A stretch of DNA of 64,000 bases, taken from Methylophilaceae bacterium (GTDB taxonomy: Bacteria; Pseudomonadota; Gammaproteobacteria; Burkholderiales; Methylophilaceae). This document shows positions 7,677 to 40,494 of the stretch, piece by piece. Position 1 is the first letter of the stretch. Each line of letters opens with the position of its first letter. The notes below the pieces were generated by a model, which was not told the DNA's origin, searched no databases, and saw only the letters and a list, made by a program, of their open reading frames with translations. The translations under genes and the position numbers were made by a program. The stretch lies in assembly GCA_028342535.1 (NCBI GenBank), contig JAOLWQ010000001.1, forward strand, positions 186,001-250,000, written 5' to 3'.

Positions 7677-7697
7677 ATTTAATATATAGCGAGTTTT

Positions 7698-8540: not shown

Positions 8541-8567
8541 TACACCTATTATTATATTGGGCTCCAA

Positions 8568-9973: not shown

Positions 9974-10390
9974 ATGGTGGTTATTAGGCTTTCAAGAAGT
10001 GGCAATAAAAATAGACCTTATTTTAATGTCGTAGTAGCAGATTCAAAGAAGCCCCGTGATGGGCGTTTTATTGAAAGAATTGGCTTTTACAACCCAATGG
10101 CTAGAGCTGGCTCAGAAACATTAAGATTAGAAACTGGTCGAATTGAATACTGGCAAGGACACGGCGCATTATTGTCAGATACGATGACTAGGATTGTTAA
10201 ATTGCATGCTAAAGGGTCAGATGGTTTAGAAGAAATGAAGAAAAAAGATGCTGCAAAAGCTGCATCAAAAAAAGCAAAAAAAGAAGCTGAGAAATTAGCA
10301 AAAGCTGAGGCAGCTGTCGAGGCAGAAGCTCCAGAAGCTCCAGCGGCAGAAGCAGCTCCAGCGGCAGAAGAAAAGACGGAAGATAAATAG
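9974..10390 (+). CDS. rpsP: 30S ribosomal protein S16 with Ala/Glu/Pro-rich C-terminal extension
   Basis: [41 protein letters not shown]; followed by rimM-trmD-rplS. Confidence 0.97.
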
Positions 10391-10401
10391 AGAAGGTTGC
10401 A

Positions 10402-22831: not shown

Positions 22832-22834
22832 AGT

Positions 22835-23890
22835 ATGGATAAAATTTTTTGGAAGGGAAAAAAAGTTTTTATAACTGGACACACTGGATTTAAGGGTAGC
22901 TGGCTCTCAATTTGGTTAGCTTCGTCAGGGGCAAAGGTAACAGGGTACTCATTAGAACCAGAAACTAACCCAAGCTTATTTGAATCTTGTGTAATTGAAA
23001 AAAAAATTAATTCAGTTATAGGTGACATAAGAGATGAGCTAAAATTAAAAAAAACAATCCATGAAGCTCAACCTGATATAGTTTTTCATTTAGCATCCCA
23101 GGCACTCGTTTTAAAGTCATATGAAAAACCACTTGAAACATACGAAACAAATTTAATGGGTACTGTAAATATTCTAAATGTAATAAGAGACGTACCTTCA
23201 GTAAAAGCTTTTATTAATGTTACAAGCGATAAGTGCTATGCAAATGATGAAAACTTTAAAGCTTTTAAAGAAGATGATCCTATGGGTGGCTATGATCCAT
23301 ATAGTTCTAGCAAGGCCTGTTCTGAATTAATTACAGCTGCATACAGAGCATCTTTTTTTAAAGATAGTGTTGCTATTGCAACAGCTAGAGCCGGAAATGT
23401 AATCGGTGGTGGTGACTGGGCTGAGGACAGAATTATTCCTGATTTTATAAAAAAAATACAACAGAAGCAAAAATTGGTAATCAGGAATCCTGAATCGATT
23501 AGGCCCTGGCAATTCGTTCTAGAACCCCTAAATGGATACTTGATGCTGGCAGAAAAGCTATTTCAGAATGGTATAGATTATGCAGAATCTTGGAATTTTG
23601 GTCCAAATAAGCAAGATGACAAAACAGTTGAATGGCTTATTACTGAAGTTAATAAAGAATATGGAGATAAAAATAATTTTAAAATAGTATCGAATAAAGA
23701 GCCATTTCATGAATCAAAATACTTAAAATTAGATTGCTCAAAGTCAATAGGTAAGCTAAATTGGTCGCCTAAGCTTAGTATAGAAAAAGCGATTTTAATG
23801 ACATGTGCCTGGTATAAGAATTTTTATACAGACAAACAGGATATTTATTCATTTAGTGTAGAACAAATAAAACAGTACGAATCAATTTAG
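22835..23890 (+). CDS. rfbG: CDP-glucose 4,6-dehydratase
   Basis: FWKGKKVFITGHTGFKGSWLSIWLASSGAKVTGYSLEP; adjacent to rfbF. Confidence 0.95.
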   Translation: MDKIFWKGKKVFITGHTGFKGSWLSIWLASSGAKVTGYSLEPETNPSLFESCVIEKKINSVIGDIRDELKLKKTIHEAQPDIVFHLASQALVLKSYEKPLETYETNLMGTVNILNVIRDVPSVKAFINVTSDKCYANDENFKAFKEDDPMGGYDPYSSSKACSELITAAYRASFFKDSVAIATARAGNVIGGGDWAEDRIIPDFIKKIQQKQKLVIRNPESIRPWQFVLEPLNGYLMLAEKLFQNGIDYAESWNFGPNKQDDKTVEWLITEVNKEYGDKNNFKIVSNKEPFHESKYLKLDCSKSIGKLNWSPKLSIEKAILMTCAWYKNFYTDKQDIYSFSVEQIKQYESI

Positions 23891-23901
23891 AAAGATAAAC
23901 T

Positions 23902-25101
23902 ATGGAAAATATTTCTTATGCAAAAACCGTCTATGGCCAAGAGGAGATAGATGCAGTTGTTAAATGTCTTAATGAGTCAACTCAAATGGGAAATTATGCA
24001 AGAAAATTTGAGTCTGAGATTGCTAAGTTATTTGAAAAAAAAGAGTGTTTATACGTCAATTCTGGATCATCAGCCCTATTTATTGGCATAGAAGCATATG
24101 ACTTCCCAAAAGGAGGAGAGGTTATTACTCCTGCGCTTACTTTTGGAACAACGGTAGGATGCCTAATAAAAAATAATTTAGTTCCAGTTTTTGTTGACGT
24201 GGAGCCATTAACATATTGTATTGATACGAAAGAAATTGAGAATGTTATAACTAGTAAGACAGTGGCAATTTTAGCTCCAAATTTAATGGGCAATCTGTGT
24301 GATTGGCCAAAAATTAGAGAGATAGCTGATAAACATAAACTTATTGTTATAGAGGATTCAGCAGATACTTTAGGAGCTAAAGTTAATAATAAAAGTTCTG
24401 GCTCATATTCAGATATGTCAATTACTAGTTTTTATGGCTCTCATATAATAAATTGTGCAGGTAATGGTGGCGCACTTTTGTTAAATAATAAAAAAATAAT
24501 TGAAAAAGCTAAATTATTAAGGTCATGGGGAAGAAGCTCCTCATTATTTGATGAAAAGAGTGAGGCTATTGAAAATAGGTTTGATGTTAATTTAGATGGA
24601 ATTGAGTATGATGCAAAATTTGTTTTTGAAGCAGTTGGCTACAATGTTGAAGGAAGTGAAATTGGGGCAGCGTTTGGAATTGAGCAATTAAAAAAATTAC
24701 AAAAGAATATTGCAATTAGAAAAGAAAACTTTAATAGACAATGTGAATTTTTTGAAAGATATAAAAAATATTTTAGCAATCCACTACAAAAAGATAATAT
24801 AAATACAGCTTGGCTAGCATTCCCAATCCTTATTAATAAAAGTGCACCTTTTAGCAGAAAAGAATTTCAAATATATTTAGAGAAAAGAAATATTCAAACA
24901 AGGGTAGTTTTTACAGGGAATATTACAAGACAGCCAATGATGAAAGGTATTGCATATAAGGTTGTAGAAAATGGTTATCCAAATGCTGATGCTGTAATGG
25001 AGAGAGGTGTTTTATTACCACTTCATCATGGTTTAACAAATAGTATGTTTGAGAGACTTCATGAGACTATTTCTGAATTCCTGGATGGCTTTAAAGAATA
25101 A
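23902..25101 (+). CDS. DegT/DnrJ/EryC1-family PLP protein, RfbH-like (CDP-4-keto-6-deoxyglucose 3-dehydrase-like) lacking expected Fe-S cysteines
   Basis: SFYGSHIINCAGNGG has His at the usual PLP-Lys position; downstream of rfbFG. Confidence 0.85.
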   Translation: MENISYAKTVYGQEEIDAVVKCLNESTQMGNYARKFESEIAKLFEKKECLYVNSGSSALFIGIEAYDFPKGGEVITPALTFGTTVGCLIKNNLVPVFVDVEPLTYCIDTKEIENVITSKTVAILAPNLMGNLCDWPKIREIADKHKLIVIEDSADTLGAKVNNKSSGSYSDMSITSFYGSHIINCAGNGGALLLNNKKIIEKAKLLRSWGRSSSLFDEKSEAIENRFDVNLDGIEYDAKFVFEAVGYNVEGSEIGAAFGIEQLKKLQKNIAIRKENFNRQCEFFERYKKYFSNPLQKDNINTAWLAFPILINKSAPFSRKEFQIYLEKRNIQTRVVFTGNITRQPMMKGIAYKVVENGYPNADAVMERGVLLPLHHGLTNSMFERLHETISEFLDGFKE

Positions 25102-25117: not shown

Positions 25118-25927
25118 CTAAAATTCAGAAAAAATAGTTAAGCCACCTGCCCATTGTTCAGAAACTTGAGTTGTATTTTTTGATAGCATTTGCGTCATAC
25201 ACCAAAATTCCATATGTGGTCCGTAAGCTTTGAGGAGCAAGACTAACCTCTCATCACTATGAACAAATGAGGACATACAAAGAATTGGCGAGTAATGGTC
25301 TTTATTTATAAGCAGCTCAGGCGATCCAACAACTGCTGCCCCTATGTCCATCCCGCCGCTTAAGCACATTTTTACATTATTTATTTCTGGAAGTTTTGAC
25401 ATTTGATTTCTTTGTGAGTCTATATCAAATTCCTGAAAGGCTTGAGGGAAATACCAACCAATAACTCCATTAAAGCTATCATCTAAAAATTTATCGTAGC
25501 GTGACCCCGGATGAACTTTAATATTATTCTGTAATTCAGAATTGCTTTGGAGAACAGCTTTAAAATGTGCATCTGGAAATCTTTCAGTAAATGATTCCTT
25601 TAGAGCTGGAAGAATTGTTTCTTCTAGATTTTTTCCTAAATCAACTCCCTTGGAAGTATTACGGTAAATAAAAGGCACATGAACTCCATTAGTTAATAAT
25701 GAAAAATCTTCATTGTCTTTTAATTTTTTAAGTAATGAGTTGGCTTTCGATTCAAAATCAGCAGCAGACAAATTATCTACACCGATTAAATTTTTTTTTG
25801 CTCTTTCTAGTATTGAATTGAAATCAAAATTTGGTTGATTTATTTTGTAGTAAAAACTTGGCTCTTTACGAAAGACCCTATCGTTTACCGTTGGTATACG
25901 ACGACCATAGTCATCAAACAGCTTCAA
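25118..25927 (-). CDS. Unrecognised 269-aa protein, partner of upstream radical SAM gene
   Basis: Long ORF with protein-like composition; 13-nt gap after the radical SAM gene on the same strand. Confidence 0.75.
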   Translation of the reverse strand: MKLFDDYGRRIPTVNDRVFRKEPSFYYKINQPNFDFNSILERAKKNLIGVDNLSAADFESKANSLLKKLKDNEDFSLLTNGVHVPFIYRNTSKGVDLGKNLEETILPALKESFTERFPDAHFKAVLQSNSELQNNIKVHPGSRYDKFLDDSFNGVIGWYFPQAFQEFDIDSQRNQMSKLPEINNVKMCLSGGMDIGAAVVGSPELLINKDHYSPILCMSSFVHSDERLVLLLKAYGPHMEFWCMTQMLSKNTTQVSEQWAGGLTIFSEF

Positions 25928-25940
25928 GAAAATCTCCTAA

Positions 25941-27152
25941 TTAAATTGATTTTATAGCAAAGATAGCTCTTCTATCTTCTGCTAAAATTTCTGGTGGACT
26001 GGGTGGATTATCATTGTTATCAATCTCTGGAGTTTTACCAAAGCCATGTTCATAAGTTACTGGCAGTAAATGACTTACATTTTTTTGGTAGTCAGCAACT
26101 GATTGATTATGGAAACGAATAAAGTCCATATGTTCACCAATTATACACTCGTCCCTATAGGGACCAAGCCAACTATTCATCATCCCTCTGCTAAGGACAT
26201 CCTTAAGAGGCTCTTTAACAACATTCCCGATAGATAAATCCATATAAGGACACGGAACAATTTCTCCATCATGGTTAACTGTATTGATTCCTTTTACCGT
26301 AATACATCTTCCAGGTTGACCATATGAAGGGCTCATATGAGTAAAAATATCATATTTATCTTCCAAATATTTTAACTGGTCTACGTCTTCTTTAGTACAA
26401 ACCCAAGTATCTTGCTCTCTGGCTGTTCCAACTGGTTTTGCTAGTGTTACGTAAAGAGGTATGTCCTCATCCTTACAATAACTGCAGAGCATCTCAAATT
26501 CTTCAGAAAAAACACGATCCTTAATAATACATGTTGATATAAGTAGTTCTAGGTTTGCAGATTTTGAAGCCTTTAAGGCTCTTAAAACTCTTGCATAAGA
26601 GCCTGGCTTACCCCTAAATTCATCGTGCTCTTCCTCAATCATACTATCTAATGATATTTGAACTTTATACCCACCTAGGCCAGCAAACCATTTTGCTTTT
26701 TCTTCATCAAAAGTCCAGCCGTTAGTGTCTAAAATAATTAAATGTTTTTTTGGGTCTATAGCTGCAATAAGCTGGTCAATACTTGAGTCTAAAAGAGCTT
26801 CTCCTCCAGTTAGAACAAATCTAAAAATTCCAGCCTCATCCGCTTGCCTAGAAAGCTCCCTATAATCATCAAGGTCCATCTGGTGTCTAGGATCTAACTT
26901 AACACCGGTTTCTTTTTTAATATCGCGAGTCATGTAGGGTTCTTCGCAACAGTGCATACAATGAAAATTACATAATGAACGATTTATTTTTATTCTCAAA
27001 ATTGGACTAATTTCACCATCAAGCATATTTTTAAAATATTGTTGAATTTTTTCATGAACTCTTGGGCGGTGGATGCTTTGATCTTTACGTTTATTTTTTT
27101 CAACTAAAGATAAAGCTTCTTGATCAGCAAGGATTTGTAAGTTATCGGCCAT
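25941..27152 (-). CDS. Radical SAM protein with SPASM-like C-terminal region
   Basis: CNFHCMHC (CX3CX2C); FVLTGGEALLD; C-terminal GRCITVKG...DGEIVPCPYMDLSIGNV. Confidence 0.88.
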   Translation of the reverse strand: MADNLQILADQEALSLVEKNKRKDQSIHRPRVHEKIQQYFKNMLDGEISPILRIKINRSLCNFHCMHCCEEPYMTRDIKKETGVKLDPRHQMDLDDYRELSRQADEAGIFRFVLTGGEALLDSSIDQLIAAIDPKKHLIILDTNGWTFDEEKAKWFAGLGGYKVQISLDSMIEEEHDEFRGKPGSYARVLRALKASKSANLELLISTCIIKDRVFSEEFEMLCSYCKDEDIPLYVTLAKPVGTAREQDTWVCTKEDVDQLKYLEDKYDIFTHMSPSYGQPGRCITVKGINTVNHDGEIVPCPYMDLSIGNVVKEPLKDVLSRGMMNSWLGPYRDECIIGEHMDFIRFHNQSVADYQKNVSHLLPVTYEHGFGKTPEIDNNDNPPSPPEILAEDRRAIFAIKSI

Positions 27153-27263
27153 TTTTTATTTAATTTAATTAAATTATTTGAATGATATTCATTTTATAAT
27201 AGTTAAGTTATATTACAAAGTGATATATTAAATATAAATAACATATAAATTTATTAAATTACT

Positions 27264-28412
27264 ATGAACATAAAATCTTACAGCCAATTAAATGAAGCAA
27301 TTATTTTTTATAAAAACTATTTTCTCAAAAGCTTAAATAAAAATTTAAAACTAAAAAAAATATTGCTTAATGATTTATCAATAATAACAACGGGATTAAT
27401 ATGGATAGATTCTAAACCTAATAATTTAAGTGATTTTCAATCAAATAGGTATTTTTTAAATGCAATTCAAATAAAAAAGCTTCCCTTTGATGATCAGCTA
27501 AAAAAGTTTTTGAAAACCGATGTTAAATCTGATAAAAACTTTACGAAATATAAAGCTAAAAATTACAAAGATTTAATATTATTTTTCTCAAAATTAATTT
27601 TAAAAGAATTTGAGAAGAAAAATTTTAACAAAAAAACAAAATTATGGAATTTAAAAGCTAAAAATTCTTTTTTAAAAAATGGTTATGTAGTTATACCAAA
27701 TGTATTTAATGATAACGAATGTAATAAGCTCAGAAATATATGCTTAAAGCTTTCAAAAAAAGAAAATAAAAATGGATATTTTTATGGATTTAATAATGAT
27801 TTTCAAAGAGTTTATAACGTAATAAATAAATCAAAAGAACTTGGAGAATTAATTGATATACCTTTAATTAATTATATTATGAATGATTTATTTAATAGAG
27901 ATACGTTTCATGATAAATATACTCTTAGTAGTCATCATATTAATATTATTCCCCCTGGTGGCTCAGAACATAAATTACACTCGGATCTAGCGGTCCCTGA
28001 ACCAATACCAGATTGGCTAATAAGAATGAATGTAAATTTCATTTTTGAAGATTATAATGAATCAAATGGAGCAACTATCTGCTTGCCTGGTTCTCATAAA
28101 TTTTTAAAAAAACCAAAACCTTCTGATGACTTAAAATTTCACAAAAGATTAGTTTCAATGATTGCGCCAAAAGGTTCAATTGCAATTTGGACAGGTCATT
28201 TATGGCATAAAAGTGGAAACAATAGCTCATCAAAGCATAGAGTAGGTTTACTTACATGTTTTGTAGCTAGCTATATGGCAGAAATAGCCCTTGAAGAAAA
28301 TCATCCAAAAATTATTAAGAAAAAACAAATGCTTAAATATTCTAAAAATATTCAAAAATTATTACTAAATTTTCATGGTTTTAAAGATGGGCATGAAGTA
28401 CGTCATGATTAA
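27264..28412 (+). CDS. Phytanoyl-CoA dioxygenase (PhyH)-like 2OG-Fe(II) oxygenase
   Basis: FLKNGYVVIPNVFNDNECNKLR; HKLHSDLAVPEP (HxD) and HLWHKSGNNSSSKHRVGL distal His/Arg. Confidence 0.8.
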   Translation: MNIKSYSQLNEAIIFYKNYFLKSLNKNLKLKKILLNDLSIITTGLIWIDSKPNNLSDFQSNRYFLNAIQIKKLPFDDQLKKFLKTDVKSDKNFTKYKAKNYKDLILFFSKLILKEFEKKNFNKKTKLWNLKAKNSFLKNGYVVIPNVFNDNECNKLRNICLKLSKKENKNGYFYGFNNDFQRVYNVINKSKELGELIDIPLINYIMNDLFNRDTFHDKYTLSSHHINIIPPGGSEHKLHSDLAVPEPIPDWLIRMNVNFIFEDYNESNGATICLPGSHKFLKKPKPSDDLKFHKRLVSMIAPKGSIAIWTGHLWHKSGNNSSSKHRVGLLTCFVASYMAEIALEENHPKIIKKKQMLKYSKNIQKLLLNFHGFKDGHEVRHD

Positions 28413-28481
28413 TTATATTAAATTAATTGATATTAAATTTTAATACCATATAATAGACAAGAAATATTTGGGCCACATATT

Positions 28482-29477
28482 TTGGCAAAATTAAAATCAC
28501 AATTTAATTACGAAGGTCGATTAAAGCTCGAGGAAAATCTGCCTCTAAATTCACCACTTGTAGTATATGTAGAACCCTCATCATTTTGTAATCTTGAATG
28601 TAAATTTTGCCCACAACATAATGGTAGAGGTGAGTTTCCAACATTCAATATGAGTTTAAAAACTTTTCAAAAAACATTGGATGACATTTCTACTTTTAAT
28701 ACGAAACCTTCCTTAATGAGGTTTTGTGGAATCGGTGATCCCTTATTCAATAAACAAATATCTAAAATTGTTAAAATGGCAGGATTATCCAACGTTATCA
28801 AAAAAACCGAAATAATCACAAATGGGACTATGTTAAATGATGAAAGAATTAATACTTTTTCAGAATACCTTGACAGAATAGTAATATCGGTTGAAGGTTT
28901 GTCTGAATTGGATTATAGTACTTTCGCTTTAAGAAAAATTAATTTTGATAAATTTGTGGCGAATATTAAAAAATTCTATGAGATAAAAGATAGAAAATGT
29001 GTAATACACATCAAAATTCACAACGCAGCTGTTCGAACTTCCAAAAAGAAAAAAAGATTTTTTGAGATTTTTGAATCGATTTGTGATGAAATTTATATTG
29101 AAAATCTTGTGGATCTTTGGCCAGAAAAAAAATCTAATCTAGGATTAGATGCTGGACATCGATTTGAAAGTACACCACCACCTTCATCAAAAGTTTGCCC
29201 ACAAATATTCAAAAGTATGCAAGTAAATGCTAATGGAGAAGTTTTGCCTTGCTGTGTAGATTGGAAGTCAATCAATGTTGTTGGTGATATTAAAAAAAAT
29301 ACGCTAAAAGAAATTTGGCATGGAGAGACAATAAAAGATTTACAAAAAAAACATTTACTCGGACAAAGAAATACTTTTAGCCCATGTAATGAATGTAATC
29401 ACAATGAATACAGTGAAAAAGATAACCTAGACAAAGATGCACATATAATTTATAAAAAAATGTTTCCAAAAGAATAG
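28482..29477 (+). CDS. Radical SAM/SPASM protein (TTG start)
   Basis: CNLECKFC; C-terminal CPQIFKSMQVNANGEVLPCCVDW...CNEC. Confidence 0.88.
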   Translation: MAKLKSQFNYEGRLKLEENLPLNSPLVVYVEPSSFCNLECKFCPQHNGRGEFPTFNMSLKTFQKTLDDISTFNTKPSLMRFCGIGDPLFNKQISKIVKMAGLSNVIKKTEIITNGTMLNDERINTFSEYLDRIVISVEGLSELDYSTFALRKINFDKFVANIKKFYEIKDRKCVIHIKIHNAAVRTSKKKKRFFEIFESICDEIYIENLVDLWPEKKSNLGLDAGHRFESTPPPSSKVCPQIFKSMQVNANGEVLPCCVDWKSINVVGDIKKNTLKEIWHGETIKDLQKKHLLGQRNTFSPCNECNHNEYSEKDNLDKDAHIIYKKMFPKE

Positions 29478-29585
29478 TTCCATTGCCAAAAACATATTTT
29501 CGAAGATTTACAAAAAAGAGTTATTTTTATTTAATCAATGCATTAAGCAATGCTCAAGAATTAAAATTGAAGTATTTTAAAATTT

Positions 29586-31727
29586 ATGGATGATATGTTA
29601 AAACAAAAAACTTCTTATAAGCTTACGATAATAATACCCTTCTATAAAGCCTTAGCTTATAGGCATATTATTATTGAAAATATTAAACGAAATAATTATG
29701 ACTTTGTATGTTTTATTTTAATTGATGATGGCTCTGAAGATGGCCATCTTGATCTTCTTAAAAAAGAAATAAAAAGTAATAATGTGACGTACATTAAAAA
29801 TCAACATAATTACGGTGTCTCAAAATCAAGAAATATTGGAATTCAAGAGTGTAAAACTGAGTTCCTTCTTTTTTGTGATAGCGATGACGATCTTGATTTA
29901 GCAAGGATTAAAGATATTAATTATGTATTCGATGAAAAGCCAGATTTACAAATATATGCTTTTAAGCATATTAACAAAAAGGGGTTTATAAACTATTCAG
30001 TCGATTATGGTTATGAAGGTCTTTTAAAAGGTAAAGATTTATTACAATTAATTAATACCTATTTAAAAAATCCAACTGGGCGCTCAATATTTATTTCTTG
30101 CTGGGGCCGTATCTATAAAACCAAATTCCTAAAACAAAATAATATTTCTTTTAATGAAGCTTTATGTATTTATGAAGATTCATTATTTGTTGCTGAAGTG
30201 ATAACTAAAGCAAGAAAAATTAATATTTGCCGAAGTGATATTTACAAACATTGGCTTCATGGAGAAGGAATGACAGTTTATGGTAACTCTACTGGTAAGT
30301 TTTGTGATCATATAGAAGTTCTTTGTAATTTTTTAAAAAATAATAAAATAAAAAATGTAACCCAATATCAATACTCATCAGTAAGTTATTTTGTATCAAG
30401 AACGCTAATGTTAATTAAAGGTAAAAGTTTACTTTTTATTTACAAAAATCTAAAACAATTATTAACTGAAGAATTGGTTGTTAATTCTTTAAGATCCCAT
30501 GAAATTCAATGTATAAAAATGCCGCTTATTAAGAGTTGGATGTTTAAAAATATATCTTTTCTTACTTTATTTATTTTTTTATATAACAAAATAAAACCTA
30601 CTATTTATGACAATAATATAATTAAAAATGATAAATTTCTTCAACGCCATATTAAAAAAAGGAAGCGTGATAAAAAAATTACTATTAGTATAATTATTCC
30701 AGTTTTTAATGACGAAAACAGATTATCTCGCTGTATTGATAGTGTTTTAAATCAGACGAATATTAATCTTGAATTAATTATAGTTGATGATGGATCAAAC
30801 GATACATCTCCACAAATTGCAGAATTATTTGCATTGTATGACGAAAGAGTTAAAGTAATTAGATCAAGGAATGGTGGGCCTAGTACCGCACGTAATATTG
30901 GAATTAGCCACTCAATTGGGGAATTTATCTTTTTCTTAGATTCCGATGACTGTATAAATAAAAATACCTTACAGCATTTGCTTATTGATATTAAGAAATC
31001 TAATATTGATTTAGCTGTTGGAGATTTTTTTATCTCTGATGATGGATCAAATGACGAAAGAATTAAATCAGGAAATGAATTAATATTTCCTAGAACAACA
31101 ATACTTAATAAATCTAAAATTAATGATTATATTAGTCACTATTTACAAAGCCCAAATAGGTACCCATTATTTACAATGTCATGGGGCCGTTTATTTAAGG
31201 CATCTATAATCAAGGAACATAATTTATTTTTTAACGAAAAGTTATGGCACTGTGAGGATGTTGAATTTAATTTTAGATATTTAATTTGGGCTGATAAGAT
31301 TTCTTTTGTTAGAAAGAATATTGTAAATCACACAGTTGGCGTCACTAGTTTAAGAATGCGTTTACCAAAAAATTTATTTAATTTTTTTGGATTCCATGAA
31401 GCTCTCAAGAGTATAAATGTTTATTTAAAAAAGATGGACATTAATAAGAATATTAGTAATAGCATTTCACATGCATATGTTACCTATTCGATTATATCGA
31501 TGATACGCCTCAGTTTTCAGTATGATAAAAACAATAAAAAGCAAACATTAAGATTACTGCGTGAGTGCATTAGCAATACAACCCTCCAAAATAATCTTAA
31601 ACATTACAAACCAAAAAGTGGTGAAAGCAAAATAATTCCATTTCTTATAAAAAAAAATCAACCCTTACTTCTTCTTTATATTTCTAGAATTAAGGGAATG
31701 TTAAGATATGATATTAGAAAAAGCTAA
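29586..31727 (+). CDS. Glycosyltransferase with two tandem GT2 (GT-A) domains
   Basis: Two copies of IIIP(F/V)...DDGS...SRNIGI/ARNIGI...DSDD and SWGR(I/L)(Y/F)K. Confidence 0.9.
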   Translation: MDDMLKQKTSYKLTIIIPFYKALAYRHIIIENIKRNNYDFVCFILIDDGSEDGHLDLLKKEIKSNNVTYIKNQHNYGVSKSRNIGIQECKTEFLLFCDSDDDLDLARIKDINYVFDEKPDLQIYAFKHINKKGFINYSVDYGYEGLLKGKDLLQLINTYLKNPTGRSIFISCWGRIYKTKFLKQNNISFNEALCIYEDSLFVAEVITKARKINICRSDIYKHWLHGEGMTVYGNSTGKFCDHIEVLCNFLKNNKIKNVTQYQYSSVSYFVSRTLMLIKGKSLLFIYKNLKQLLTEELVVNSLRSHEIQCIKMPLIKSWMFKNISFLTLFIFLYNKIKPTIYDNNIIKNDKFLQRHIKKRKRDKKITISIIIPVFNDENRLSRCIDSVLNQTNINLELIIVDDGSNDTSPQIAELFALYDERVKVIRSRNGGPSTARNIGISHSIGEFIFFLDSDDCINKNTLQHLLIDIKKSNIDLAVGDFFISDDGSNDERIKSGNELIFPRTTILNKSKINDYISHYLQSPNRYPLFTMSWGRLFKASIIKEHNLFFNEKLWHCEDVEFNFRYLIWADKISFVRKNIVNHTVGVTSLRMRLPKNLFNFFGFHEALKSINVYLKKMDINKNISNSISHAYVTYSIISMIRLSFQYDKNNKKQTLRLLRECISNTTLQNNLKHYKPKSGESKIIPFLIKKNQPLLLLYISRIKGMLRYDIRKS

Positions 31728-31757
31728 AAAAGACCCTAAAGTTGTTATAATTCAATA

Positions 31758-33065
31758 ATGAGCTCATTGCTGATAGAAAAAAAGGAAGAATTAACTAAAA
31801 AGTTATGTTCTGTAAAAGAGCCAATAATAATTTATGGCGCAGGAGTTGCTGGCCAAGTATTACTAATTGCATGTAAGGAAGCTGGAATTCAAATTGAAGC
31901 CTTTTGCGATAATAACATTAAGAAAAAAGGCAGTATTTTAAATAGTCTAGAGATTATCCATACTGATGATATTAAAAATAGGCATCCAGAAGCAATTTTT
32001 ATAATATCTTCAGCAGACATAACAGACATAAAAGATCATTTAGTTGCTTATGGATATTTAGAAGCTAGCTTATACCCAGGAGGCTTAATTCTTAAGGGAT
32101 TTGATTTTAGTGAGTTTAAAAATCACTACGAACCTTACAATAATGAAGATAAAGATAAAGGATTTGTTGAGTTTGCAATTTCGAGCACGATTGAATGCCA
32201 TGAAGGATACTTAGACCCTAAAAAAATATTTATGAGAAGTGTTGATATTGTTGTAACTGAGAAATGCACAATGAAGTGTGTGGACTGTTCAAATTTAATG
32301 CAGTTTTTCGAAAAACCAGAAAGTTATGAAATTGATGAAATGAATAAAGCAATAGAGTTGCTTTGCTTGTTCTCTGACCAAATATTTGAGTTTAGAGTTA
32401 TTGGTGGAGAGCCATTTGTAAACAAGAAAGTACATAATGTTATTGAGAAGCTTATATCAGAATCAAAAGTGAAAAGAATTGTTATTTATACCAACGGAAA
32501 TGTAATTCCAAGAGAAAATCAAATTGAATGCCTAAAGCATGAAAAAGTACTTATGAATATTACTGATTATTCTAGATCTGGTGAAAAAATCGAAGACGAG
32601 TATACAAAAAAATTATCTAGATTTGTAAGAACTACAGATAAGCTTGAGCAACTTTGTATCGATAACGAAATTGATTATCGCCGACATCCACCAGAAAATT
32701 GGACCGATTGTGGGCGTATAGAAAATTTTAATAGGACAATAGAAGAAAATCAAAGGATATTTGATGAGTGCTGCTGCAAAAATCTTACTACATTGTCAAA
32801 AAATGAATTACATCGATGCCCTTTTTCTGCACAGATAACTAGGTTGGGTGTATGTGATGAAAAAGAAGATTATATTGATTTAACAAAGCACACAGACCTA
32901 ATTGCCAATCGTAAAAAACTTAAAAAACTTTTGGATGATAAGAGTAGCCTAAAAGCCTGTGATTTTTGTCCAGGGCGAGCACTTCATGACCCACAAATAA
33001 TTCCTGCAAAACAAATTAAAATGCCTTTACCATATAAGCGTAATGTTGAATTGAGTGATTCTTAA
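31758..33065 (+). CDS. Radical SAM protein with N-terminal Rossmann-like (PglD/CoA-binding type) domain
   Basis: N-term IIIYGAGVAGQVLLIACKEAGIQIEAFCDNN; central CTMKCVDC and FRVIGGEPFVN; Cys-rich C-terminus. Confidence 0.82.
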   Translation: MSSLLIEKKEELTKKLCSVKEPIIIYGAGVAGQVLLIACKEAGIQIEAFCDNNIKKKGSILNSLEIIHTDDIKNRHPEAIFIISSADITDIKDHLVAYGYLEASLYPGGLILKGFDFSEFKNHYEPYNNEDKDKGFVEFAISSTIECHEGYLDPKKIFMRSVDIVVTEKCTMKCVDCSNLMQFFEKPESYEIDEMNKAIELLCLFSDQIFEFRVIGGEPFVNKKVHNVIEKLISESKVKRIVIYTNGNVIPRENQIECLKHEKVLMNITDYSRSGEKIEDEYTKKLSRFVRTTDKLEQLCIDNEIDYRRHPPENWTDCGRIENFNRTIEENQRIFDECCCKNLTTLSKNELHRCPFSAQITRLGVCDEKEDYIDLTKHTDLIANRKKLKKLLDDKSSLKACDFCPGRALHDPQIIPAKQIKMPLPYKRNVELSDS

Positions 33066-33103: not shown

Positions 33104-34150
33104 TTATAAGGTAAATTTAGCAGTTTTTAAAATTGCATCCTCAAGAGATGTCCATTCCCTTACTTCAAGTGCTTCTCTAATTTTTTCTGTATTTGGAAGA
33201 TAAATATCTCTTCTAAAATTTCCTTCATGCAAATTTTTATCTTGGATGATTACTTTTTTAGAAGGGGCAATAATATCTCTTACCATATTAGCTAATTCAA
33301 TAACCTGTATTCGTCTTTCGGATCCCACATTAAAAATACCTTCTACATCCCTAACAAGAAGTTTTATTAGCCAAATTAAAGTATCTGATATATACAAGTA
33401 GGACCTATAAGGAGATCCATTACCATTAATTAGAATATTCTCATTAAAAATAGCATCATTAATAAAATTTCCAATTGCATAATGTATATCTAATGGTAAA
33501 TATGGACCAACAAATGAAAAGCATCTAGCAATTTTAAAATTAATATTATTTTCTATACTCATTTTAGAAATAATATCTTCAGCAAGTATTTTTCCTTTAG
33601 CTAATCCATTTCTTTTTTCAAGTTCTAGGGAGTGACATACATCACTTTCATCTTTCATGTCTTTAGAAGATGATCCATAAACAACACCGGACGAAGTAAA
33701 CAAAATTTTTGAAATATTATTTTCTATTGCAATTTCCATAATATTTTTTGTACCATTAAATAAAGTTTTAGTTTTGTTATTATCTGTCTCACCATTAAAT
33801 GTTTCTTCAGCTGATGTTGCAGCCATATGCAATAAGAAATCAAATTTATTAGTAATTTTTTTAAGATCTAAAATATCTATTTGAATTATTTTTAGAAATT
33901 TATTATTTTTATAATGAGGATTTTCTAAGAAAAATTTATTTTGATCTCTTGTTATTAAAGTAGTTAAAATATTTGTATTATAATTTTTGTTAGTATAGAA
34001 AATTAAACTGAGAAACCATTTTCCAAAAAAACCAGTTCCTCCTGTAATTAAAAGAGACTTATTTGATAGTAAATTGAATTCTTTTTTACAATTATTAAAA
34101 ATAAAATTTAAATCAGATTCAATATCATATTTAATCATCATTATTTCCAT
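33104..34150 (-). CDS. NAD-dependent epimerase/dehydratase (SDR)
   Basis: LLITGGTGFFGKWFLSLIFY; SSGVVYGSSSKD; RSYLYISD. Confidence 0.88.
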   Translation of the reverse strand: MEIMMIKYDIESDLNFIFNNCKKEFNLLSNKSLLITGGTGFFGKWFLSLIFYTNKNYNTNILTTLITRDQNKFFLENPHYKNNKFLKIIQIDILDLKKITNKFDFLLHMAATSAEETFNGETDNNKTKTLFNGTKNIMEIAIENNISKILFTSSGVVYGSSSKDMKDESDVCHSLELEKRNGLAKGKILAEDIISKMSIENNINFKIARCFSFVGPYLPLDIHYAIGNFINDAIFNENILINGNGSPYRSYLYISDTLIWLIKLLVRDVEGIFNVGSERRIQVIELANMVRDIIAPSKKVIIQDKNLHEGNFRRDIYLPNTEKIREALEVREWTSLEDAILKTAKFTL

Positions 34151-34652
34151 TAATTAATGATTCATAGGGGGCATGTTGTTTAATAATATTTATTGGGGCT
34201 TTATCATGCCAAGACCATTGACCATTTTGAGGCTCGCCTTCATTATATTTTCTTTTTATATCAGGCTCACTTTCTGGCCTGCATTCATAAAGAAATGTTA
34301 TGAAGTGACCTCTGATATCTCTATTTTCAGCAAATAATTCCTTTATGGTTATTGGATCTTTGTTATGCGTAATAGACATTCCTAACTCAGATTCTGCAAC
34401 TTTATGAATTCTAGAAGAAAAGGTTTCTTTAAAGCGTATAATTCCACCTGGAATATGCCAGCCAGGACCATAGTATTTGTCATCTCTCCATATGAGGAGT
34501 GTTTGTTTTTTTTTATTTTTAATTAATAGGTCCACATTTGCCATGGCAGTTATGGAGCTAGCAAAGTAAAATAATTCATCAGGCAAGCCATCCCGTGGGT
34601 CAGGGATAATCTCCTTAATTTTCTTTAAGTATGACTCTAAAATATTACTCAC
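34131..34652 (-). CDS. Nudix hydrolase, GDP-mannose mannosyl hydrolase-like
   Basis: GPGWHIPGGIIRFKETFSSRIHKVAESELGM Nudix-like box, degenerate relative to GX5EX7REUXEEXGU. Confidence 0.8.
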   Translation of the reverse strand: MSNILESYLKKIKEIIPDPRDGLPDELFYFASSITAMANVDLLIKNKKKQTLLIWRDDKYYGPGWHIPGGIIRFKETFSSRIHKVAESELGMSITHNKDPITIKELFAENRDIRGHFITFLYECRPESEPDIKRKYNEGEPQNGQWSWHDKAPINIIKQHAPYESLINGNNDD

Positions 34653-35797
34653 TCAATAATCTCAAGGTGATCTTCGCGTACAATTGCAATATTCTTAATA
34701 AAGGGATATTTATTAGATATGATTCTCTTTACTTCATCAGAATAACCAGCTGCAATAATAATTAGTGCATCAGGGTAACTATTTTCTAATTGCTCTGGCG
34801 ATTCAATTTTGATATTAGTACCGGAAGTATATTTATTTTGTTTAAAGTGTGCTGAATCTACTATATAGTTTATATGTTTGGCAATTCCTGATAAAGAGAT
34901 AATAGCTAATGACTGATGACCAGCTCCCCATATAACAATATTTTTATTATTAAATTTTTTAATATAGTTAGCAAGTTCATTATTTAATGAATTAAATTTA
35001 TCCATAAAATTATGAACTAGAAGAGGGGTTCTTTTCTTAACCTCAACAGATAAAATATAATCATGCCAAATTGTTTTGATTGAGATAATTTCAAATCCAT
35101 TACTTTGTAGTATTTGTGAAAGTGAATTCTTATCAAAATAAAAAATATGGTCAGTAATGAATTCTGTATAAAGTCCTTTTTTCTGAATCATTTCAAAATT
35201 AGGCACCTCAATAATTCCATATGCTTCTTCTGCTAATAAGTCCCATAAGATACTCAATGCTTCCGAGGGATTAGGCCAATGCTCCATAAAGCTAAAGATG
35301 CCAAATGCATCATAGCCTTTTTGGGGTTGATCTTGAATTACCAATTCACCATCTAAATAACCTTTACTTACTTCTAAACCTTTTGTTTTACACAAAGCTA
35401 AATTCTTATCAGAGTATTCCAAACCAAATGCTTTTTTAATACCAATTTTTCTTATAATATCTAGATAATCACCAGCACCACAACCAATTTCAATATATTT
35501 TTTATTAGATAGTTTATTTAACTCTATCCATTCTTTAAATTGTTGTATTCTAAAATTTTCCATTTCTTTCGAAACAGATACTGCTCTAATTACTTCTTTA
35601 TAATATGGAACAGGATCCAATATATGTTGCACTAGATTACATTTTGAACATTGGTAAATATCAAGGTTTACATTATTGTCTTTCTGATCAGGGTCATTAT
35701 GAAAATCCTGAGCTGATATAGGCGAGTCTTTATAAGATAAAAGTGGCGGTTCAAATAATTGACTTTTACATGATCTACATTTTAAATTAGCACTCAT
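34649..35797 (-). CDS. SAM-dependent C-methyltransferase-like protein with N-terminal zinc ribbon
   Basis: CRSCKSQLFE...YQCSKCNLVQ; IEIGCGAGDYLDII; C-terminal IVIWGAGHQSLAII. Confidence 0.85.
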   Translation of the reverse strand: MSANLKCRSCKSQLFEPPLLSYKDSPISAQDFHNDPDQKDNNVNLDIYQCSKCNLVQHILDPVPYYKEVIRAVSVSKEMENFRIQQFKEWIELNKLSNKKYIEIGCGAGDYLDIIRKIGIKKAFGLEYSDKNLALCKTKGLEVSKGYLDGELVIQDQPQKGYDAFGIFSFMEHWPNPSEALSILWDLLAEEAYGIIEVPNFEMIQKKGLYTEFITDHIFYFDKNSLSQILQSNGFEIISIKTIWHDYILSVEVKKRTPLLVHNFMDKFNSLNNELANYIKKFNNKNIVIWGAGHQSLAIISLSGIAKHINYIVDSAHFKQNKYTSGTNIKIESPEQLENSYPDALIIIAAGYSDEVKRIISNKYPFIKNIAIVREDHLEIIE

Positions 35798-37612
35798 TTA
35801 ATTTTTTATTTTTTTAGAAGCTGAGTTTAGCGGGTATATCATTTCTTCTTTTAGTTGCTCCCTTGATAGAAGGGGCGTCATATCCTCTAGTGGCATGGAT
35901 AACATTGATCCATTTTTTTGAGGTATTGCTGCAGATTTTGGCCACAAAGTGTCATCTGATTTTAAAGAGATATCACAAACGATAGATGTTTTACTTTTTA
36001 GAACTGCATTTATTCCTTTACTCAAGCTATTTAAATCCTTTACTTTAAAAGAATTAATACCTATTGAGCTAAATATTTTACATATATCAGGTAAGTACAA
36101 GTTTGATTCTGGACCAGTAGCAATATATCTTTTATTGAAATAATTTTTCTGGGTATTTCTAATTGATGCATAACCGTTATTGTTGAGAATGAATAATTTG
36201 AAAGGTTTTTTTGATAGCTTTAATGTCAAAATTTCTTGTAAATTCATTAATAGACTACCGTCACTTTCAATACATATTATTTCTTTATATTTATTTGAAT
36301 TTAAAGCTCCAATTAAGGCAGGCAACCCATAACCCATAGCACCCAATCCTGATGTCAGAAAAATTCTTTGCCCGGGCTTATTCCTAAAGGCCATATAAAA
36401 AGACTCAATAGCTAAGCCTGAGCTTCCTGTTACGATTAATGAGTTTTTTGGCAATTGATCCGATAAGAAATCAACTAACTGAAGATGACTAATTTTTTTA
36501 TTATTAGTAAATTTATTTCCATCATTAATTGGATATTTTTTTTTCCATTCATTACATTTTTTTATCCAGTTAGAAAATCTTTTGACATTATTTTTAGTTG
36601 ATTTGCTGTTTAAATTTTCTATAAATAACTTAGCATCCATATTTATCTTAAAATCAATTTTCATTTTAAATTTATGTAATTCATTTAAGTCAATGTCGAC
36701 AATTATTTTCTTTGCATTTTTAGCAAAGTTTTTTGGGTTGTATGCGGTAATAATATTATCTAGTCTTGCTCCTATAGAAATTAATAAGTCCGAATTTTGA
36801 ATTGCAAAATTAGGCGCTCTAAGTGCTACAGTTCCAGGCTTTCCAATATTTAACTCACTTGAGTCTGGTATTAAATCCATTGCATTCCATGTTGTCACCA
36901 CAGGTATTTTTAATATTTTGCACATTTTTGTAAAATCTTTTGATGCTTTAGACAATCTAATGCCATGACCAGCTAATATAATTGGTCGATTTGAAGAATT
37001 AATTAAATTAAGAATTTCATTGTATTTATTGAAGGATTTTTTTTTATTTGAAAGAGCTTTAAATTCGATGAGAGTTTCTGCCGCGATTGGGGCGGCTTGA
37101 ATATCAAGTGGTATATCTATCCAAACAGGACCTTTTCGACCTGTTGTTGCTAAGTGGTAAGCCTTTTCTAGCTCAGATCTAATTTTTTTTGGGTCTTTAA
37201 CAGTTGTAGCATACTTTGTAATGGGCTTTACTATAGAGACTATATCTACTTCTTGAGGCCCCATTTGCCTAACTCCAGAATTACCTTTTAAATCTGATGT
37301 CTTCACTTGACCAGAAATAATCATTAACGGAACAGACTCGATCCAAGCACCAGCTACTCCGGTTATTGCATTAGTTGATCCTGGACCGGTGGTGACTACT
37401 GCAACCCCAATATTTTCAGTTACTCTTGAATATGCTTCTGCAGAAATGGATGAAGCTTGTTCATTGTGGTTGGCAACATAATCTAAACCTTTTTTGCATT
37501 GAATGGCATCATTTAAAAACATAGCCCCACCACCAGGGACCATAAAAACACAATCTACTCCAATTTTTTTTATAAAGGATGCTACATAATCTGCAACTCT
37601 AGTTTTTTGCAT
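35798..37612 (-). CDS. Thiamine pyrophosphate-dependent enzyme, acetolactate synthase-like
   Basis: HNEQASSISAEAYSR; ESDGSLLMNLQEILTLKLSKKPFKLFILNNNGYASIR. Confidence 0.9.
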   Translation of the reverse strand: MQKTRVADYVASFIKKIGVDCVFMVPGGGAMFLNDAIQCKKGLDYVANHNEQASSISAEAYSRVTENIGVAVVTTGPGSTNAITGVAGAWIESVPLMIISGQVKTSDLKGNSGVRQMGPQEVDIVSIVKPITKYATTVKDPKKIRSELEKAYHLATTGRKGPVWIDIPLDIQAAPIAAETLIEFKALSNKKKSFNKYNEILNLINSSNRPIILAGHGIRLSKASKDFTKMCKILKIPVVTTWNAMDLIPDSSELNIGKPGTVALRAPNFAIQNSDLLISIGARLDNIITAYNPKNFAKNAKKIIVDIDLNELHKFKMKIDFKINMDAKLFIENLNSKSTKNNVKRFSNWIKKCNEWKKKYPINDGNKFTNNKKISHLQLVDFLSDQLPKNSLIVTGSSGLAIESFYMAFRNKPGQRIFLTSGLGAMGYGLPALIGALNSNKYKEIICIESDGSLLMNLQEILTLKLSKKPFKLFILNNNGYASIRNTQKNYFNKRYIATGPESNLYLPDICKIFSSIGINSFKVKDLNSLSKGINAVLKSKTSIVCDISLKSDDTLWPKSAAIPQKNGSMLSMPLEDMTPLLSREQLKEEMIYPLNSASKKIKN

Positions 37613-37629
37613 ATAGCTTTTATAAACTT

Positions 37630-39147
37630 TTATAAATTTTTATAAAAATTTATAAAAGTTTTCCTGTGTTTATTTAAGGTTATTTTATCATCAATATAGA
37701 ATGAGTCATCTGTGCTATGTGTGTCCGATATTTCTTCAACAATAGCCCCTTTTTTACTTGAAAATTTGTGTACCATTCCTTTTTCAATTGTTATGACTTC
37801 ACCGAGCTTCATTTTAATATTTTTATTATCCAATGTAAGAGTAAGGTCCCCATACATTAAAAGAAATGACTCTTCTTTCTTTTTATGAAATTGAGCTGGA
37901 TGAACTTGACCAGGCAGAGAGATTAATAATTTTTTACAATATGCTCGATTAATTAATGTGAAAATCACCATTCCGTATTCATTAAATTTTTCTAGGCCGT
38001 AATGATGTGATATTTCCATTTGAATTGAAGATGGAAGCTTTATTTCTGCAGCTGATATTATCTTATTAACTTTTTTTGTAATTTCCTCTAGTATTGATCT
38101 TTGATAAGAAATAGACGAATTATTTTTTGATACAGCTTCATCTTTCTTTATTTCAGTTTTTGCTTTGAATGAGGAATATTTGGAATAGTCATTAGCAGTA
38201 TATTGATTTTGTTTAGGGGGGAATGCAAAGTAAATATCTTTGCTTAGAATGACATCTCCTTTGTTAATTTTTTTCTTAACAAAAATCCCTCTTCTTAGAG
38301 AATGTAAACTTTCCTGCTCCACATTATTTATAAGACTTCTTTTATTGCCTTCTCCACAAATCTTCATTGCATTAGATAATGAGTTTAACCATTGTTCAAA
38401 TTGATGAGGACTAACTGAATATCTATTAATTGGGTATTCGGCTGTTGGAAGCGCCACATGCTTTTCAAATATTTTTGCTCCTTTTGCAACCGCTATCGAA
38501 ACCAAGTTAAAATTATTTGGATCTTCATGTGTTGAATAACCAATAGTTGTATCTGGATAACGATTTCTCAAATAATCAATTTGGGATAAATTTAATCTTT
38601 CATCTTTAGTTGGGTATTCTGCTACACAATGCATGATTGCAAATTCTTTCTTTCTATTTTTAAAGAATGAGATAACGTTATCAATATCAGTTTCTGATGC
38701 TCCTGCGGTAGAAGCAATAATTGGCTTATTAATTTTAACCATATCCTCGAGAAGGGGCCAGTCTGTAAAAGAACAACTAGCAACTTTCAAAATATCTATA
38801 TCCTGTTTTAATATTAATTTTAAAGAATTATTATCAAATGGTGTCACCATAGCTTGGTAACTATTAGATTTGATCTTTTGGACTAATTTATTAAAATTAC
38901 TTTCGGTGAGTCTGGTTTCAGAAAATCTTTTGACATAGTGATTATTGAGATCGTTTTTTACAGATTTGTGTATAAAAGTTTCAAGATCTCTATATTGCAT
39001 TTTAAATGCAAAATTAAGATGTTTAAATTTTTTACAAATTTTTGAAAAAGTATTAATCAGATCGATGCCATGTTCTACATCGCCCATATGATTATTTGCT
39101 ATTTCAAGAACAATTAAATCTTTTAATTTATTATGCATCTTCAACAA
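37630..39147 (-). CDS. NeuB-family sialic acid synthase-like protein with SAF and C-terminal cupin domains
   Basis: EIANNHMGDVEHGIDLI; STAGASETDID; GYSTHE; RRGIFVKKKINKGDVI (SAF); HPAQFHKKKEESFLLMYGDLTL (cupin). Confidence 0.9.
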   Translation of the reverse strand: MLKMHNKLKDLIVLEIANNHMGDVEHGIDLINTFSKICKKFKHLNFAFKMQYRDLETFIHKSVKNDLNNHYVKRFSETRLTESNFNKLVQKIKSNSYQAMVTPFDNNSLKLILKQDIDILKVASCSFTDWPLLEDMVKINKPIIASTAGASETDIDNVISFFKNRKKEFAIMHCVAEYPTKDERLNLSQIDYLRNRYPDTTIGYSTHEDPNNFNLVSIAVAKGAKIFEKHVALPTAEYPINRYSVSPHQFEQWLNSLSNAMKICGEGNKRSLINNVEQESLHSLRRGIFVKKKINKGDVILSKDIYFAFPPKQNQYTANDYSKYSSFKAKTEIKKDEAVSKNNSSISYQRSILEEITKKVNKIISAAEIKLPSSIQMEISHHYGLEKFNEYGMVIFTLINRAYCKKLLISLPGQVHPAQFHKKKEESFLLMYGDLTLTLDNKNIKMKLGEVITIEKGMVHKFSSKKGAIVEEISDTHSTDDSFYIDDKITLNKHRKTFINFYKNL

Positions 39148-39181
39148 TTAATCCTATGTAAATATTCGTATTCAATTACTT

Positions 39182-40117
39182 TTAAAAGTTTACACGTTCT
39201 GATTCAACAACTAGAGGCATATTTCGAATTCTGCTGTGGATTGTGCCAATGTATTCACCAATTAAACCTAAAAAAAACATTTGTATTGATCCAAAAAAGA
39301 ACAAACCAATAAGTAATGGTGCTACACCTACATTAAAAGAAGTCCAAAAAAATAATTTCATGAATAAATAACTCATAGCAAGAATAAAACTTAAAACAGA
39401 CAAAATAAATCCAAATATAGCTAAGAGCCTTATTGGAAATTTTGAATGATTAGTAATGCCTAACATAGCTGTTGCGTATAGGTTATAAAAAGTACTATCT
39501 TTTGAAACCCCTTTTTTTCTTTTCGGCTGTATAAAATTCACAATACCAATTGGAAAGCCAATTTCTACTAATGCCCCTCGAAAAAAGGGAATGGGGTCTG
39601 GTGTATTTCTAAGATAATTAATTACATCATGATCAACTAGCCCACTCCCAGTAGAGTTTTCGATTGGAGGGACCTCTGAGATTTTTGTTAAAATTCGATA
39701 ATATACCTTTCTCAAATTGGATATAAATTTTGATTCTTCGGTTTCTTTTTTTACAAGAACAGCTATTTTAAATCCTTCTTCCCATTTTTTTATTAAATCT
39801 GGGATAACCTCTGGGGGATCTTGAAGATCTGATGCAATCTGAATACATGCATCTGATGAGACCTGATTTAGTCCATACATGTGTGAACATTCAGAGCCAA
39901 AATTTCTTGCATTTACTATCAACTTAACTTTTTTATTCTTTTTTGCTATCTGCTTAATTTTTTTAACAGTTCCATCACTAGATGCATTATCAACAAATAA
40001 ATATTCAAAGCTATATTTAGGAATTTTTGCTACTATTTTAGATAAACGATCATACAGTTCGTCAATATTATCTTCTTCATTAAATGTACAAAGAAGTATG
40101 GTTATAGTTTTTTTCAT
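39182..40117 (-). CDS. GT2 polyprenyl-phosphate glycosyltransferase (GtrB/DPM1-like)
   Basis: TILLCTFNEEDNIDELYDRL; ASDLQDPPEVI; C-terminal TM pair. Confidence 0.92.
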   Translation of the reverse strand: MKKTITILLCTFNEEDNIDELYDRLSKIVAKIPKYSFEYLFVDNASSDGTVKKIKQIAKKNKKVKLIVNARNFGSECSHMYGLNQVSSDACIQIASDLQDPPEVIPDLIKKWEEGFKIAVLVKKETEESKFISNLRKVYYRILTKISEVPPIENSTGSGLVDHDVINYLRNTPDPIPFFRGALVEIGFPIGIVNFIQPKRKKGVSKDSTFYNLYATAMLGITNHSKFPIRLLAIFGFILSVLSFILAMSYLFMKLFFWTSFNVGVAPLLIGLFFFGSIQMFFLGLIGEYIGTIHSRIRNMPLVVESERVNF

Positions 40118-40494
40118 TTTTTAAATACCACATTTTTATTTAAAATATAACTAAGTATCGCACGAGGAATTATAATTATTGCTCCAGCAATTTCATAACT
40201 TATATCAAAATTATGGATAAAAGAAATTCCAGCAATTGATATAAGGTACAGAAAAATAGTAACAAATACAAATTTATAGAAAAGAGTATTATTTTTCGAA
40301 TTAAAAACTAATCTTCCCGTTGTAAAAAAATTAAATATTGTTCCTATCAATGTAGAAACAAAGGCTGCAATTGTAAAATTAAAACCTAATTGCAGAATTA
40401 CCCAATAAATACCATAACCAACAATTGTGTTTAAAACACCAACTATAATAAATTTTGTGAATTGTATTCTTTTTAATATTAGATTAAATATCAT
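40114..40494 (-). CDS. GtrA-like membrane protein
   Basis: FTKFIIVGVLNTIVGYGIYWVILQLG; four TM segments; overlaps GtrB-like gene. Confidence 0.9.
   Translation of the reverse strand: MIFNLILKRIQFTKFIIVGVLNTIVGYGIYWVILQLGFNFTIAAFVSTLIGTIFNFFTTGRLVFNSKNNTLFYKFVFVTIFLYLISIAGISFIHNFDISYEIAGAIIIIPRAILSYILNKNVVFKK

Follow-up and report, generated by a model that had tools for sequence, protein, structure and literature searches.

A conserved NeuB-cupin and carboligase operon in a Methylophilaceae genome and its probable role in the synthesis of a branched higher-carbon sugar

We analysed a stretch of 64,000 nucleotides (hereafter, the window) from a marine Methylophilaceae bacterium (assembly GCA_028342535.1, contig JAOLWQ010000001.1, positions 186,001 to 250,000 of the forward strand), focusing on seven genes at window positions 33104-40494 that include a NeuB-family synthase fused to a cupin and, next to it, a thiamine diphosphate (TPP) enzyme. 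Specifically, seven open reading frames lie on the minus strand with overlaps or small gaps at their junctions (40114/40117, 39147/39182, 37612/37630, 35797/35798, 34649/34652, and 34131/34150), as the initial annotation had described them, and the operon was confirmed. Its domain calls for GtrA, GT2, NeuB, cupin, TPP enzyme, methyltransferase, Nudix, and short-chain dehydrogenase/reductase (SDR) were reproduced with Pfam and NCBIfam, although the SAF domain gave only a weak match (21.0 vs. a cut-off of 21 bits). The seven genes are as follows.

40114-40494, minus strand: GtrA-type membrane protein that probably flips a polyprenyl-phosphate sugar (PF04138, 58.5 bits; cut-off 26.1)
39182-40117, minus strand: PgfS/ArnC-like GT2 glycosyltransferase, polyprenyl-phosphate type (PF00535)
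37630-39147, minus strand: NeuB-family synthase with a C-terminal D-lyxose-isomerase-like cupin (PF03102, PF07385, PF07883)
35798-37612, minus strand: YerE-like thiamine diphosphate carboligase, cofactor motif SDG (TPP_enzyme N, M, and C; best PDB match 8rph)
34649-35797, minus strand: zinc-ribbon S-adenosylmethionine (SAM) methyltransferase with sugar C-methyltransferase architecture (Methyltransf_23 and Methyltransf_14)
34131-34652, minus strand: Nudix protein whose Nudix box is degenerate, with GDP-mannose mannosyl hydrolase as its closest match (NUDIX in Pfam; profile match to 2gt4/1rya, E 4e-9)
33104-34150, minus strand: extended SDR of the nucleoside diphosphate sugar reductase/epimerase type, with Leu183 in place of the active-site Tyr (PF01370, Epimerase)

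The operon is also conserved: its gene order is kept across unrelated genomes, which rules out a chance arrangement. At least 554 relatives of NeuB were confirmed in one scan, and we compared 85 loci, 80 of which were fetched with their flanks by the NeuB profile alone and five of which came from whole-genome searches. Many of these loci end at contig ends and the gene counts are lower bounds; the co-occurrence p values were calculated post hoc and treat loci as independent though the genomes are related. The 85 loci cover more than 10 phyla (including Proteobacteria, Actinobacteria, Spirochaetes, Bacteroidetes, Nitrospirae, Chloroflexi, and Thermotogae), and several candidate phyla and archaea are also among them; cultured relatives with a NeuB-cupin gene include Polynucleobacter kasalickyi (L070) and Pseudomonas capeferrum WCS358 (L072). 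A TPP gene was present in 77/85 loci and lay ≤1 kb from NeuB in 76, with both genes codirectional in every pair counted and often overlapping. As a control, we examined 25 other NeuB-family loci, and none had a TPP gene of this kind at ≤1.5 kb. Genes for rfbH (59 loci), rfbG (56), rfbF (50), and SDR (50) were also common; rfbF, rfbG, and rfbH lay ≤5 kb from NeuB in 45, 52, and 55 of the 85 loci, respectively, and in many relatives rfb genes immediately precede NeuB. The Nudix gene (30/86 loci) co-occurs with the methyltransferase gene (p 5e-8); apart from one locus, neither gene is found together with another module, which consists of two different methyltransferase-like genes. The initial annotation had treated the set as one linked group; elsewhere this holds for NeuB and the TPP gene, whereas the methyltransferase and Nudix genes accompany them in only about a third of loci.

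Ranked by structure matches, the TPP enzyme is nearer to YerE-like enzymes than to acetolactate synthases. Its best match was 8rph (E 8e-101), which we take to be JanthE of Janthinobacterium sp. HH01, followed by 5ahk (E 4e-68), presumably PpYerE, and by plant acetohydroxyacid synthase (E 7e-67 and weaker). The catalytic Glu51 was found in 80/80 homologues, and the cofactor motif among these was SDG in 51 and GDG in 29; the window enzyme has SDG, whereas GDG is the usual form in enzymes of this kind. JanthE and YerE are carboligases, coupling 2-oxo acids with ketones (PMC12247030, PMC12188165). YerE and ErwE act on cytidine diphosphate (CDP)-4-keto-3,6-dideoxyglucose, and YerE branches C4 of the sugar; hydroxylated 2-oxo acids are preferred by ErwE and by the caryophyllose enzyme MMAR_2332, and YerE itself uses pyruvate (PMC12247030). 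The physiological substrates of JanthE were unidentified according to a 2025 paper (PMC12188165). For the window enzyme, the predicted activity is the coupling of a 2-oxo acid to a keto sugar. In some related loci (e.g., L084), a gene of ~200 amino acids from a second HAD-like family without a Pfam match lies between NeuB and the TPP gene; the TPP enzymes of loci with this gene carried GDG in all 15 counted and never SDG.

Judged by its profile matches, the NeuB part belongs to the phosphoenolpyruvate (PEP)-dependent 3-deoxy-ulosonate synthase superfamily (PF03102, 142 bits vs. a cut-off of 22.1; best PDB match 3g8r, E 4e-106). The PEP and metal residues K49, K121, S205, H207, E228, and H230 were conserved in 82/82 homologues and E15 in 80/82, and Y178 is likewise kept (80-82 of 82). 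The cupin part (~residues 372-497, roughly 37657-38034) scored over the cut-off of PF07385 (D-lyxose isomerase) and was matched by profile to the D-lyxose isomerase structures 2y0o and 7nzo. When aligned to 2y0o, its metal ligands H421, E426, and H460 were present in 81/82 homologues and H416 in 74, and by homology the cupin is a candidate aldose-ketose isomerase of the D-lyxose isomerase kind. The position of Arg314 of meningococcal NeuB, presumably the SAF residue that contacts the N-acetyl group, was Phe or Ile in 80/82 homologues. Neither the NeuB equivalog model (147 bits vs. a cut-off of 399.65) nor the PseI model (124 vs. 340.25 bits) was reached.

The biosynthetic set reaches beyond 33104-40494. 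Three genes at 22010-25101, 8-18 kb from the operon within the window, resemble those for a CDP-sugar acceptor, and further genes lie at 25118-33065.

22010-22831, plus strand: rfbF, glucose-1-phosphate cytidylyltransferase (TIGR02623, 442.8 bits; cut-off 300)
22835-23890, plus strand: rfbG, CDP-glucose 4,6-dehydratase (TIGR02622, 502.5 bits; cut-off 278)
23902-25101, plus strand: RfbH/ColD-like 3-dehydrase of the DegT family (best PDB matches 3bcx/3bb8)

For the dehydrase, RfbH was the best model (309.8 bits vs. a cut-off of 423), and the best structures were those of CDP-4-keto-6-deoxyglucose-3-dehydrase. Its pyridoxal phosphate Lys is replaced by His, and the Fe-S cysteines are absent. Members of the same dehydrase subfamily, 57% identical to the window protein, are encoded in clusters L173 and L175, and L075 has an 86% homologue upstream of NeuB within the same cluster. 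With rfbF and rfbG over their cut-offs and an RfbH-like dehydrase beside them, CDP-4-keto-3,6-dideoxyglucose is plausibly made.

Three further genes of the operon appear to encode tailoring enzymes, and the individual roles that we give them are guesses from homology. The methyltransferase matched TcaB9 by profile over its whole length (E 4e-33) and has the domain order of TcaB9/TylC3 (Zn-Cys4, SAM, C-terminal nucleotide-sugar domain), with the model match for its zinc-binding N-terminus under the cut-off. Four Cys and Asp216-His217 are invariant in its family; compared with the presumed catalytic residues of TcaB9, His225 corresponds to the invariant His217 and Glu224 is replaced by Asp, while Tyr222 is not conserved in the window protein. 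Sugar C-methylation by this enzyme is plausible. The predicted structure of the Nudix protein (predicted local distance difference test score 92) gave 2i8t as its top Foldseek match, with other Nudix folds nearly as high, and the GDP-mannose mannosyl hydrolase family model was not reached (22.9 vs. a cut-off of 146 bits). Its box, G-x5-E-x7-(K/A)-V-A-x2-E-(L/I)-G, was found in nearly all of 30 homologues and is of the degenerate type of the C-O cleaving members. With regard to the SDR, the catalytic Tyr was retained in 32/50 homologues and the Lys was invariant; the Tyr was lost in 13/16 Nudix-bearing clusters vs. 1/19 of the other module. The replacements in Nudix-bearing clusters were Leu, Trp, or Ile.

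The GT2 enzyme scored 159.9 bits with NF047588 and 108.2 bits with PRK10714, each under the cut-off, and its homologues were present in 22 related loci. Together with GtrA this suggests polyprenyl-linked sugar transfer, and the two proteins speak for transfer at the membrane, as the initial annotation had proposed.

We consider it probable that the region builds and exports a higher-carbon, C4-branched 3,6-dideoxy sugar, with the NeuB-cupin protein making the donor of the branch. A branched or higher-carbon sugar had already been proposed in the initial annotation and is also our preferred reading. From the observed gene content, homology, active-site conservation, and synteny we infer the reactions and substrates, the order from NeuB to the TPP enzyme, and the roles in the last two steps. 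First, rfbF, rfbG, and the RfbH/ColD-like dehydrase would supply CDP-4-keto-3,6-dideoxyglucose. The cupin would act as a ketose-to-aldose isomerase (D-xylulose/D-lyxose or D-fructose/D-mannose, judging by homology), and the NeuB barrel would join the aldose to PEP, giving a 3-deoxy-2-ulosonic (4-hydroxy-2-oxo) acid. The YerE-like enzyme would then decarboxylate the acid and put the acyl group on the C4 ketone, leaving a tertiary alcohol that bears a long side chain like that of caryophyllose. The side-chain ketone would be reduced by a reductase, perhaps the SDR, and the methyltransferase and Nudix protein may modify a nucleotide sugar or free a sugar from one. Finally, GT2 would attach the sugar to polyprenyl phosphate, after which GtrA would flip it for transfer outside. 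Of the two or more C-C bond formations that were first counted, those of NeuB and the TPP enzyme are better read as successive steps, donor synthesis and then carboligation, than as independent ones.

The donor role of NeuB is suggested by its near-universal link to the TPP gene combined with the presence of 4-hydroxy-2-oxo-acid enzymes in clusters that lack it; no NeuB was found within the examined stretch of L173, L175, or L176. Cluster L173 has the order rfbF-rfbG-dehydrase-GtrA-GT2-SDR-acetaldehyde dehydrogenase-4-hydroxy-2-oxovalerate aldolase-TPP, in which the genes for the aldolase (TIGR03217, 388.5 vs. a cut-off of 286 bits) and the acylating acetaldehyde dehydrogenase adjoin the TPP gene, both scoring over the cut-offs of their models. 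L175, where an HpcH/HpaI protein (34.6 vs. a cut-off of 25 bits) is encoded three genes from the TPP gene, lends weaker support than L173, and L176 has no 4-hydroxy-2-oxo-acid-making enzyme in its stretch, so that the rule of donor-gene swaps is not universal. We also note that in L173 the YerE-like TPP enzyme, encoded with the aldolase and dehydrogenase genes in the stretch 7531-11351, has a CDG motif, and that in L175 a stretch at 5768-11249 holds a YerE-like TPP gene near 3-dehydroquinate-synthase-like, Rieske-domain, and HpcH/HpaI genes. Two HAD phosphatase genes of the related clusters (c9 and c12) were together in 0/41 loci (p 0.004), which suggests that a phosphorylated donor intermediate is dephosphorylated once in those clusters. 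The branch of caryophyllose is a 1,3,4,5-tetrahydroxyhexyl group that is deoxy at C2' (PMC5706390), the residue expected after decarboxylating a 3-deoxy-2-ulosonic donor. A wider generalization, which we regard as possible rather than probable, is a widespread modular route to 12-14-carbon branched sugars: cupin-NeuB, as a bifunctional isomerase-synthase, would turn a ketose and PEP into a 3-deoxy-2-ulosonic acid (e.g., C8 from a pentose) that is not activated with cytidine monophosphate (CMP) but decarboxylated and joined to C4 of a CDP-keto sugar, in a donor slot exchangeable between NeuB and pyruvate aldolases.

Several observations weigh against a donor-making NeuB and the pathway built on it. 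The CDP-sugar genes of the window stand apart from the operon, and the dehydrase scores under the RfbH cut-off. The operon contains no HAD phosphatase (c9 or c12), with distant homologues elsewhere in the genome, and its SDR lacks the catalytic Tyr. NeuB-cupin occurs without a nearby TPP gene in two genomes (L055 and L056); in L055 (8851-11714), NeuB-cupin, HAD phosphatase, and CTP_transf_3 cytidylyltransferase genes stand in a row, which indicates that NeuB-cupin is not tied to branching and can apparently serve a CMP-sugar. In addition, JanthE takes simple 2-oxo acids in vitro, hence the donor may be pyruvate.

A rival possibility, to us improbable, is that two separate sugars are made. The TPP enzyme would form a yersiniose-like acetyl branch from pyruvate, which YerE itself takes (PMC12247030), and the ulosonic acid of NeuB-cupin would be CMP-activated by an enzyme encoded elsewhere and form its own residue. 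The L055 arrangement fits this, as do the NeuA/KdsB-superfamily cytidylyltransferase genes present elsewhere in the genome. However, a separate NeuB sugar would predict an adjoining CMP-synthetase and an accidental TPP link, whereas we recognised no NeuA-type cytidylyltransferase in the frequent neighbour clusters, and NeuB and TPP genes are ≤1 kb apart in 76/77 loci holding both, often overlapping. Likewise, it does not agree with L173, whose cluster is otherwise similar but has a 4-hydroxy-2-oxovalerate aldolase in place of NeuB. Rather more doubtful is a PseG-like order in which the Nudix protein frees an aldose from a nucleotide sugar and NeuB acts on it last, the ulosonic acid being the final sugar and the TPP enzyme decorating a precursor. 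NeuB needs a free aldose and the Nudix protein resembles GDP-mannose mannosyl hydrolase, a sugar-freeing enzyme, but the limited spread of Nudix contrasts with the near-universal NeuB-TPP link, no CMP-synthetase is linked, and the aldolase swap is left unexplained. Ordinary nonulosonic (sialic, pseudaminic, or legionaminic) acid synthesis is very unlikely: the NeuB fold and conserved PEP site would allow it, yet the low NeuB and PseI scores, the changed SAF residue, and the lack of NeuA and NeuC in the operon led us to reject the sialic acid pathway, in agreement with the initial annotation. We give the least credence to a branched-chain amino acid acetolactate synthase lying here by accident, since the TIGR00118 match (371.4 bits) is under the cut-off of 538, the nearest structure is the YerE-like JanthE, and the gene adjoins sugar genes across phyla.

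The genome around the window comprises 1.19 Mb in 17 contigs, and the nearest named relatives of the cluster are Methylophilaceae loci (L059 and L075). The G+C content is 28-31% across ~24-40 kb of the window vs. ~33% around it, and a close NeuB homologue was found in few genomes of the genus, a pattern expected for a variable surface-polysaccharide island. A promoter scan returned 43 sites vs. 48.7 in shuffled sequence, with no excess. NeuB was not matched in the plasmids, phages, or viral contigs searched, and carriage by phage or plasmid was rejected on this ground. Between the CDP-sugar genes and the operon lie the following genes.

25118-25927, minus strand: conserved protein of a family without Pfam/NCBIfam match (cluster c15, in 11 loci), which pairs with the next radical SAM gene
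25941-27152, minus strand: radical SAM/SPASM protein that goes with the methyltransferase-Nudix module (PF04055)
27264-28412: PhyH-type dioxygenase, amid the two gene groups
28482-29477, plus strand: radical SAM/SPASM protein (PF04055, PF13186; cluster c16, in 10 loci)
31758-33065, plus strand: radical SAM protein with an N-terminal PF08484-like domain (cluster c17, in 9 loci)

Of the 30 Nudix-bearing loci, 22 had the radical SAM gene of 25941-27152 (Fisher p 2e-7). The PF08484-like domain at 31758-33065 resembles the C-terminal domain of sugar C-methyltransferases.

The type of pathway, YerE-type C4 branching, is already known. The initial annotation, partly supported overall, had suggested an uncharacterised sugar; much of the set fits known branching of CDP-4-keto-3,6-dideoxyglucose (PMC12247030). 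NeuB as donor-maker for YerE-like enzymes was not found in the open-access literature searched and may be published elsewhere. If true, it would provide a function for the large subfamily of NeuB-cupin proteins, whose current names refer to sialic acid or spore coat synthesis, and it would explain where YerE-like enzymes obtain their long 2-oxo acid donors and hence how the long side chains arise. The branch would become predictable from the donor-synthase gene; according to a 2025 review, no sugar is known for most of the >200 predicted YerE-like clusters (PMC12247030). It would also mean that a rare, large, branched cell-surface sugar is made by a widely shared gene set.

Compared with known systems, the closest solved structure to the NeuB part, 3g8r, is a probable spore coat polysaccharide biosynthesis protein E named by similarity only, and the context of the window suggests a role in branched-sugar donor synthesis instead. 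N-acetylneuraminate synthase NeuB shares the conserved PEP and metal residues, but the window protein differs in its cupin fusion, missing SAF Arg, other partners, and scores far under the cut-off. Among solved structures, JanthE comes nearest to the TPP enzyme, and in both the GDG motif begins with an unusual residue (Cys in JanthE, Ser in the window enzyme). The C7 branch of gastriose, which was not found in the literature searched, is a lead and not evidence. The caryophyllose of Mycobacterium marinum lipooligosaccharide likewise has a long, TPP enzyme-made (MMAR_2332) C4 branch that is deoxy at C2', and related mycobacteria carry NeuB beside the TPP gene in the same locus type as the caryophyllose pathway. 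In one of them (G566), NeuB-TPP-GT2-rfbF and rfbH-rfbG are flanked by mutAB-like and pks5-like genes, which we take to mark where the lipooligosaccharide locus lies. The cupin is missing from some mycobacterial NeuBs. We did not identify M. marinum in the genome set that was searched; MMAR_2331 was not confirmed as its NeuB gene, could equally be GT2 by the G566 order, and is not used as evidence. Close parallels are also the pathways of yersiniose A (YerE) and erwiniose (ErwE), with the same CDP-4-keto-3,6-dideoxyglucose acceptor genes, a homologous TPP carboligase, and a tertiary alcohol at C4 (PMC12247030). YerE and ErwE use pyruvate or a 4-hydroxy-2-oxo acid, whereas the window has NeuB-cupin beside its carboligase together with the methyltransferase, Nudix, and SDR genes.

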